Below are positions 56,503 through 58,771 of a stretch of 58,771 nt of DNA, one piece after another. The notes beneath the pieces are model-generated. The model worked only from the letters and a program-made list of their open reading frames with translations. It was not told the origin of the DNA and made no database searches. Each line of letters opens with the position of its first letter. Within the stretch, counting starts at the first letter, position 1. The position numbers were made by a program, and so were the translations under genes. This DNA is from Candidatus Gastranaerophilales bacterium (GTDB lineage Bacteria > Cyanobacteriota > Vampirovibrionia > Gastranaerophilales > Gastranaerophilaceae). The stretch spans positions 1-58,771 of the forward strand of contig CALUUN010000008.1 of NCBI GenBank assembly GCA_944323995.1, given 5' to 3'.

Positions 56503-57618
56503 ATGATAACATTTGAAAAACTATTCAAAGCATACAGGGATTGCTGTAAACACAAACGGGGCAAAAACAGCCAGATAACTTTTGAATTCAATCAGGAGCG
56601 GAATCTGGTTGAACTTTATGCGGAATTAACAGAAGGAAGATACATACCGGATTACAGTATATGTTTCATAGTAATTTTTCCTAAAGTGAGAGAAGTTTGG
56701 GCTGCGAATTTTCGCGACAGAATTGTACATCATTTAATTTATAACGAAATAAAAGACAGGTTTTACAATCGTTTTACAATAGACACATTCAGCTGTATTC
56801 CAAAACGCGGCACCGGCACGGCGCAAAAACGGCTGGAAAAATACGCGCGCGAAATCACCTGCGGATTCAAACAGGATGCATACTATTTAAAAGCCGACAT
56901 AAAGAACTTTTTTGTCAGCATACGAAAAGATATTCTTATGAAGCAAATAGAAGAACACGTAAGCGAAGAATGGGTTCTTGATTTATGCAGGAAAGTAATA
57001 TACAACGACCCGCGGGAAAACGCGCGCATACAGTCGCCCGAATACAAATTTGAGATGCTGCCGAAGCACAAAAGCCTCTGGTACACACCGAACGACAAAG
57101 GGCTGCCCATAGGAAACCTTACGAGCCAGTTTTTCAGCAATGTATATTTGAACAAACTTGACCAGTATGTAAAACACAAACTGCGCTGCAAATATTACTG
57201 CAGATATGTGGATGATTTTATAATTTTAGACAAAGACCCGCACAAACTCCACAGGATACACAAGGAACTCACGGAATTTTTATTTAAGGAACTGAAACTG
57301 GAACTTCACACGGATAAACGCGAGATAAACAAAATTTCGAAAGGGATAGATTTTGTCGGATTTCAAACCAAAACGTTCAGGACATATCTTCGCCAGAAGA
57401 CCATTAAACGCGTTTTTAAGCTCATCAGAATACACAAGAAGGCACCTTATGACCCGGACGAAATAAAGAGCTTTATAGCGAGCGTAAACAGCTATCTTGG
57501 GATGTTAAGAAATATAAACGGATACAAAATGCGCCGCGAGATTTGCTTGCAGTCAATAGATTTGTTTATAGGATGCGACGAAGAATTTACCAAACTATAT
57601 CTGCGGTGCATTTTGTGA
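56503..57618 (+). CDS. Diversity-generating retroelement reverse transcriptase
   Basis: The 371-aa RT has the palm motifs ADIKNFF (domain 3), GLPIGNLTSQF (residues 200-210) and YVDD (235-238, RYVDDFIIL). The IGN-x-x-SQ motif in place of the QG-x-x-SP of group II introns is diagnostic of DGR enzymes. FRDRIVHHLIYNEI and GTGTAQKRLEKYAR are also typical. There is no maturase, endonuclease or retron ncRNA domain. An extended -10 box TGATATAAT (56480-56488) gives a very short leader. An Avd gene and template repeat follow on the other strand. Confidence 0.92.
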   Translation: MITFEKLFKAYRDCCKHKRGKNSQITFEFNQERNLVELYAELTEGRYIPDYSICFIVIFPKVREVWAANFRDRIVHHLIYNEIKDRFYNRFTIDTFSCIPKRGTGTAQKRLEKYAREITCGFKQDAYYLKADIKNFFVSIRKDILMKQIEEHVSEEWVLDLCRKVIYNDPRENARIQSPEYKFEMLPKHKSLWYTPNDKGLPIGNLTSQFFSNVYLNKLDQYVKHKLRCKYYCRYVDDFIILDKDPHKLHRIHKELTEFLFKELKLELHTDKREINKISKGIDFVGFQTKTFRTYLRQKTIKRVFKLIRIHKKAPYDPDEIKSFIASVNSYLGMLRNINGYKMRREICLQSIDLFIGCDEEFTKLYLRCIL

Positions 57619-57975
57619 ATCATCAGCCGCTGATTTTAGAGAGGCTTGAAGCCAGCCCTGCGCCTGCTTGGAAACCGAGGCCAATTCTTGCGTAAAATGG
57701 GTATATTTAATTTCAGTAATAATTTTAAGGTCAAAAGATATTCTGAAATACACACCAAGAAACTGAGCATATTCAATGATTTGCAGAATAAAACCTGCCC
57801 TGTCGCGCGCACTGTTAGCTTTATAAATACAAATAAGCAGCTCAACAATTGCATTCTGGATTTTCTCACCAAGCGAGTATTTAAACTCTCTGGGGAAATT
57901 TTTTGTTACATGCATAACTTCCAAGAGCAAATTATAAGAAGTTCTGTAAAGTTGTAAATGAGTATACTGTGCCAT
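57595..57975 (-). CDS. avd: Avd-like four-helix-bundle accessory protein
   Basis: The 126-aa protein reads as four amphipathic helices: LQLYRTSYNLLLEVMHVTKNFPREFKYSLGEKIQNAIVELLICIYKANS, then helices to IKYTHFTQELASVSKQAQGW. This is the 23S-intervening-protein / Avd fold. Avd binds the RT and the template RNA in DGRs. It lies convergent to the RT gene, overlapping its 3' end by 24 bases, and directly downstream of the template repeat. Confidence 0.85.
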   Translation of the reverse strand: MAQYTHLQLYRTSYNLLLEVMHVTKNFPREFKYSLGEKIQNAIVELLICIYKANSARDRAGFILQIIEYAQFLGVYFRISFDLKIITEIKYTHFTQELASVSKQAQGWLQASLKSAADDSQNAPQI

Positions 57976-58040
57976 AATTTTAAAAGTTTTTGTAGTAATC
58001 GCATTACCGCTGCGGTTTATAAATCCTCAAAAGAGCCGAA

Positions 58041-58204
58041 CAACTTTCATCGCCTACGCAAACCGCCCATAAGTTCGGGTTGGAGTTGTCTCTGTTGCCA
58101 TTCGAGTTCCAGTTCGTGTTCACGGAGTTGAATTCGCGTTCGTGCGCGTTGCGAGCGTCCGTCTCCTGACCGGACCACAGGTTGAAGCCGCGAAACGACG
58201 GGTT
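58041..58204 (-). repeat. DGR template repeat (TR)
   Basis: Read on the minus strand in the frame of GGCTTCAACCTGTGG, the segment encodes FNLWSGQETDARNAHERE, then FNSVNTNWNSNGNRDNSNPN and LWAVCVGDES. It contains eleven or more AAC/AAT codons, the adenine-rich sites that DGRs mutate, in a C-type-lectin-like variable-region sequence. The frame is closed just upstream by a stop, so it is template and not gene. It ends about 65 bases before avd. No VR copy is visible in the window. Exact ends are approximate. Confidence 0.85.
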
Positions 58205-58241
58205 TTAAATCACAACATACAAAATTTTTCGTAAGTGCGAC

Positions 58242-58261
58242 TCGCATCCTTCTGGATGCGA
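58242..58261. repeat. 8-bp stem, 4-nt loop hairpin next to the TR
   Basis: TCGCATCC (58242-58249) pairs with GGATGCGA (58254-58261) around four bases, about 40 bases upstream of the TR in the minus direction. It has the same dimensions as the hairpin/cruciform found beside DGR variable repeats, though position beside a TR is unusual. Confidence 0.65.
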
Positions 58262-58610: not shown

Positions 58611-58771
58611 TTTATGTGTAAAAGATAGTAATAATAACCGTTTGGGAGGTGTTATTTTTTCAAAGTACAAGTTTTTTAAATAATTAAATAATTGTGAATT
58701 CTACGTTCCGTTTTGTGGTCTGTACGCCCCGGCGGCGCTGAATGATTGAATAATTAAATGATTGATTATTC

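Follow-up and report, generated by a model that had tools for sequence, protein, structure and literature searches.

A stretch of 58,771 nucleotides (hereafter the window), which is the whole of contig C8 in a draft genome of 35 contigs and 1.75 Mb (estimated 99.9% complete), contains a diversity-generating retroelement, DGR1, at 56,503-58,194; its reverse transcriptase (RT), avd gene, and template repeat (TR) are all confirmed. Taken as a whole, the data are best explained by a chromosomal DGR that acts in trans to rewrite unlinked prepilin-like genes, probably encoding modular pilins, with a second element elsewhere in the genome, DGR2, doing likewise. We consider this explanation highly likely.

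An initial annotation, made from the letters of the window alone, had reported an RT with both signature motifs, an Avd-like protein, and a TR. The first two are borne out in full (Table 1). The avd ORF scored 49.3 bits against the Pfam bAvd model (cut-off 40) and matched the PHROG family "Avd protein of DGR" (E 4e-20); its score against the NCBIfam Avd equivalog, 49, falls under that model's cut-off of 80. The TR is also real, but its bounds are those listed in Table 1 and not the 58,041-58,204 first proposed. As described earlier, TR1 and avd lie on the minus strand with TR1 upstream, and the plus-strand RT runs convergently into the end of avd, the two genes having 24 bp in common at their 3′ ends. 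The layout of DGR1 is RT-inverted, as claimed, although it is less surprising than it first seemed, since inverted and remote-target DGRs are known (PMC3521204, PMC4891356, PMC7517822). To the left of the RT are housekeeping genes (a prenyltransferase, a signal peptidase, and a ribosomal protein operon). The TR RNA with its flanks folded no better than shuffled sequences (z -0.12), and the number of promoter-like sites did not exceed chance expectation.

Table 1. Features of the two retroelements (positions refer to the window unless a contig is given)
Feature	Position	Strand	Remarks
DGR reverse transcriptase, 371 aa	56503..57618	+	IGNLTSQ and YVDD intact
Avd accessory protein, 126 aa	57595..57975	-	Pfam bAvd and PHROG matches
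Template repeat TR1, non-coding here	58050..58194	-	Bounds from TR/VR homology
TR1 3′ end, GGGCGGTTTGCGTAGGCGA, adenine-poor, IMH*-like	58050..58071	-	Role suggested by BPP-1 (PMC3240598)
Putative contig-end trace of a target gene	58695..58771	-	Match to post-VR sequence on C1 and C16
DGR2 (L026)	C19, 3648-7388		Canonical order target, avd, TR, RT; one cis target

A whole-genome search with TR1 returned 10 further places (E 1e-23 to 6e-48), each holding a variable repeat (VR) that differs from the template chiefly at adenines. In the nine VRs that align without gaps, 159 of 342 adenines were changed, as compared to 33 of 936 other sites (Fisher P about 6e-72); nine of those 33 changes represent one fixed C-to-T difference at the VR 3′ end. 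At this place all 10 VRs have GGT where TR1 has GGC, and they then end in GAA and a stop codon. The IMH and IMH* of BPP-1 differ at the matching 3′ place, and the difference may have the same role here (PMC3240598). Each of the 10 VRs runs up to the stop codon of a prepilin-like ORF, and all of these ORFs belong to one gene family. Since the VRs are scattered over the chromosome, unlinked to the RT, the earlier proposal that the targets lie elsewhere and are diversified in trans is well supported.

The reading frame of TR1, FNLWSGQETDARNAHEREFNSVNTNWNSNGNRDNSNPNLWAVCVGDE, includes SVNTNWNSNGNRDNSNPN and contains 25 variable codons, one of which is able to mutate to a stop. Both TRs have the same codon design, mostly AAC or AAT with a single stop-capable codon per TR. 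In BPP-1, a hairpin after the VR is required. In this genome, a hairpin follows the VR in eight DGR1 targets and is absent in two, and after many DGR2 VRs it is short or absent. Post-VR hairpins are therefore unsupported as a universal mark of targets.

The initial annotation saw no VR or target gene in the window. As a statement about the window this holds, but the window is a single contig of a draft assembly and its end carries post-VR sequence. Its last 77 nt are a 99% match to the stretch directly after the DGR1 VR on C1 and match the post-VR sequence on C16 less closely. A contig that breaks off in what is post-VR sequence elsewhere has probably lost a neighbouring target during assembly; this target would lie just beyond 58,771, on the same strand as TR1, and its expected ending would be GGTGAATAA. 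Whereas the RT visibly runs opposite to TR1, the existence and strand of the local target are deduced from the contig end only. Contigs C1, C9, C15, C16, C17, C18, and C19 also begin or end inside target genes, and the simplest reading would be that the assembly broke at these repeated genes. One such end, on C19, truncates a DGR1-type target ahead of its VR. A join between the window and C19, checked by synteny in eight congeners, was neither favored nor disfavored, gene order being variable. In this assembly, hypervariable repeated genes thus break up the contigs and hide targets.

Besides the window RT, the genome has one other RT, which is on C19 and belongs to DGR2; in the RT tree, the two are separate lineages. 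Genome-wide, TR2 is matched by 22 VRs, of which 21 are clear and one is decayed. In the TR2 VRs, 381 of 893 adenines and 78 of 1714 other sites were changed (P 2e-126). Nearly all DGR2 VRs lie in the same prepilin-like family as those of DGR1, but in another subfamily. The two elements together account for 31 clear VRs in 1.75 Mb (10 for DGR1 and 21 for DGR2). Among the open-access papers that we consulted, a non-exhaustive set, the highest counts for one genome come from Trichodesmium, with 18 TR/VR loci (PMC8867640), and from Thiohalocapsa, with 21 VRs (PMC10907252), so that 31 exceeds any genome in those papers. One VR-bearing domain, at C1:149008-149140 (L085), sits mid-way in a different pseudopilin with ~200 residues after it; with 19 non-adenine changes at 88 sites, its VR is probably decayed.

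The target proteins share a plan, with a prepilin-type N terminus (FTLAEVLITLAIIGIVAALTIPTL), a conserved middle, and a variable C terminus, in which the last ~45 residues of the C-terminal domain are the variable part. Their N termini scored 27.4 and 25.0 bits against Pfam N_methyl (PF07963, cut-off 21.2) and were above the cut-off of TIGR02532. The targets are thus prepilin-like and not FGE-like, as had been considered at the outset. The genome encodes an A24 prepilin peptidase, along with four ATPases of the T2SSE/PilB/PilT type, which makes it plausible that the targets are processed as prepilins and assembled into filaments.

A C-type lectin fold was looked for in the C-terminal domain: that of this genome's targets had no match in Pfam, and a profile search of the PDB returned nothing. 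A target from a relative (L028) gave a weak match to Lcl_C (27.5 bits, under the cut-off of 34.9), and its structure prediction had a mean pLDDT of 30, too low for use. In this genome the domain is present in 53 copies, and in about 21 of them no VR was recognised; 10-18 copies also persist in congeners in which an RT was not detected. Judging from sequence, the targets are most likely modular minor pilins or pseudopilins with a hypervariable, putatively surface-displayed binding domain. DGR targets elsewhere have been found to resemble a Bacteroides pilin tip or have been tied to "putative pilin structures" (PMC6199706, PMC6642488). In some targets (L017, L019, L069, and L078, for example), inserted in-frame interspersed repeats (such as SHCEERSDVAIA and NAITTSNAAHSPRND) precede the prepilin motif, as do mosaic leader modules, and the true start codons may sit further downstream. 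Other targets are broken: in L070 (C3), an internal deletion joins the N- and C-terminal parts, and L061 (C11:8274) has a stop codon within its VR.

To compare the VRs with their surroundings, we calculated median pairwise divergence among the paralogs. At non-adenine VR sites, divergence was 4.8% for DGR1 and 8.6% for DGR2, as compared to 19% and 30% over the 420 nt upstream and 28% and 36% over the adjacent 150 columns; adenine sites diverged by about 52%. Because non-adenine VR sites diverge far less than the flanks, these values support the view that the VRs have been copied repeatedly from the TRs since gene duplication, and the same contrast rules out plain duplication as the cause.

One alternative is that the system has recently become inactive, such that the VRs are relics of earlier retrohoming that gene duplication has spread further. 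The broken targets are consistent with this possibility, as are the 19 of 88 non-adenine changes in the L085 VR and the retention of 10-18 copies of the domain in four members of the genus in which an RT was not detected (G004, G005, G011, and G013). However, the RT and Avd ORFs are intact, and of the 104 non-adenine sites, most DGR1 VRs depart from TR1 at no more than 1-6, one of these differences being fixed in all, while the flanks diverge by 19-28%. We therefore regard recent inactivity as improbable.

Alternatively, the VRs may be alike due to gene conversion among paralogs, with the variation at adenine sites arising by codon selection and not from an error-prone RT. The targets are indeed mosaic outside the VR: C4b, a DGR1 target, has the kind of middle module that characterizes DGR2 targets, and recombination among copies is therefore likely. 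As an account of the VRs themselves, gene conversion is nonetheless very unlikely, as the changes sit on the adenines of a non-coding TR beside an RT and Avd, the non-adenine codon positions are nearly fixed, silent ones included, and the two different TRs are each paired with their own subset of VRs.

The initial annotation had named two results that would overturn it. One, the absence of any adenine-differing copy of the TR, is contradicted by the 10 VRs; the other was a placement of the RT among group II introns or retrons. Among solved structures, the best match to the window RT was the BPP-1 DGR RT (E 3e-31), far better than a group II RT (4e-12), with other RTs, including those of retrons, also behind. 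A tree built from 19 RTs set three RTs of group II introns apart with 100/100 support, and the window RT fell inside the DGR part beside the RTs of Gastranaerophilales relatives. The RT motifs are unvarying across relatives. The tree refutes a group II assignment. Although generic RT models (TIGR04416, DRT, and retron profiles) pick up the common RT domain, all score far under their own cut-offs, and with Avd and the TR/VR pair present beside the RT, we place almost no weight on a group II, retron, or defence RT accompanied by incidental repeats. It is equally far-fetched that the element is part of a prophage that diversifies phage receptor-binding proteins: phages do carry DGR RTs, but their 40-43% identity to the window RT is no sign of recent phage origin, the genes near it in the window have housekeeping roles, the targets are dispersed host-type prepilin genes, and neither the RT nor the target domain had a relative in scans of IMG/VR.

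In the trans-acting mechanism that we favor, TR1 RNA would be read from the minus strand, apart from the plus-strand RT message. The RT and Avd would copy this RNA into cDNA with errors at adenines, and through retrohoming the cDNA would replace the 3′ ends of at least 10, and probably 11, unlinked prepilin-like genes. The products may then present a hypervariable binding domain, either on a type IV filament or on the cell surface. DGR2, from C19, would rewrite about 21 more members of the family in the same way. A more far-reaching proposal, to which we give roughly even odds, is that two independent DGR lineages in one reduced genome together sustain a set of over 30 hypervariable modular type IV pilins, in which retroelement-driven variation is joined by paralog shuffling. 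If true, this pilin variation would be mechanistically unlike that of Neisseria, which occurs by gene conversion.

The mechanism itself would be ordinary. DGR1 resembles the DGR of BPP-1 (mtd-avd-TR-brt) in its RT lineage, its Avd, the adenine-specific transfer from TR to VR, the location of the VR at the target 3′ end, and the IMH-like 3′ end of the TR. Unlike BPP-1, in which mtd, avd, TR, and brt are on one strand with one cis target, DGR1 has an inverted RT, a TR before avd, and prepilin-like targets in trans. RT-inverted cassettes and trans targets were each known separately. RT inversion has been known since a 2012 survey (PMC3521204), in which group 4 comprises elements from Shewanella baltica, Vibrio sp. 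RC586, and Photobacterium angustum. Like DGR1, these have an RT opposite to the TR; their VR is on the TR strand, as that of the probable local target of DGR1 would be. Group 4 differs in having its target within the cassette, and in that survey its RTs form one cluster. Rearranged cassettes have been known since 2019 (PMC6642488).

Several known systems act on many targets. In Treponema denticola, one TR likewise serves several unlinked, surface-directed targets, although strain ATCC 35405 has seven, many of them lipoproteins, as compared to 10 and 21 with prepilin N termini here (PMC4891356). Remote-target DGRs of cyanobacteria, such as Trichodesmium erythraeum, also have multiple remote VRs, with two DGR RTs in one genome (PMC7517822, PMC8867640). 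T. erythraeum has 18 loci, and the cyanobacterial targets are mostly predicted cytosolic signalling proteins, whereas the 31 clear VRs described here are in a 1.75 Mb genome and the targets are of membrane or filament type. Thiohalocapsa PB-PSB1 similarly has many targets and evidence of action in trans; its nine DGR loci, 15 targets, and 21 VRs involve conflict-system proteins (PMC10907252). For the protein architecture, a possible analog is PilC of Streptococcus sanguinis, which combines a pilin moiety with an extra binding domain, in this case a lectin module; the available part of that report does not mention DGR diversification (PMC9934059).

From the sequences, what appears to be new is the scale and the target class, modular type IV pilin-like proteins, in a probable Gastranaerophilales host; the use of two TRs with separate target sets is unusual as well. 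The largest metagenome survey states that remote-target DGRs are beyond its detection (PMC8144416). Such elements are thus under-counted, and this genome shows the possible size of a repertoire. Our results also point to pilin-like proteins as a DGR target class in this lineage, for which our search of the open-access literature found no DGR paper. With two TRs and separate target sets in one cell, the genome offers a natural system for studying how DGRs recognise unlinked targets.

Among relatives, the components of the cassette are freely reordered, and the exact order found in the window (RT inverted, TR before avd) was in none of the nine loci compared. Two of these, L027 and L028, carry RT, target, avd, and TR, all pointing the same way; the canonical order is found at L053, L054, and L057, and also for avd, TR, and RT at L058, on a short contig without a target. 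At L094 (G035:C76), a prepilin-like target, avd, and TR are present with an RT neither nearby nor elsewhere in the assembly, and L029 and L051 have an RT without avd or TR nearby. Prepilin-like DGR targets are also present in close relatives (L027, L028, and L094). In the congener G015 (contig C22, L056), the RT is split over two frames and is apparently a broken DGR RT. The host is a small-genome bacterium, probably from animal guts and likely a member of the Gastranaerophilales. The nearest named relatives of the RT are from a Candidatus Gastranaerophilales MAG and Fusobacterium sp. CAG:439, and the riboflavin-gene neighbourhood of the RT in the congener G006 is common to both.
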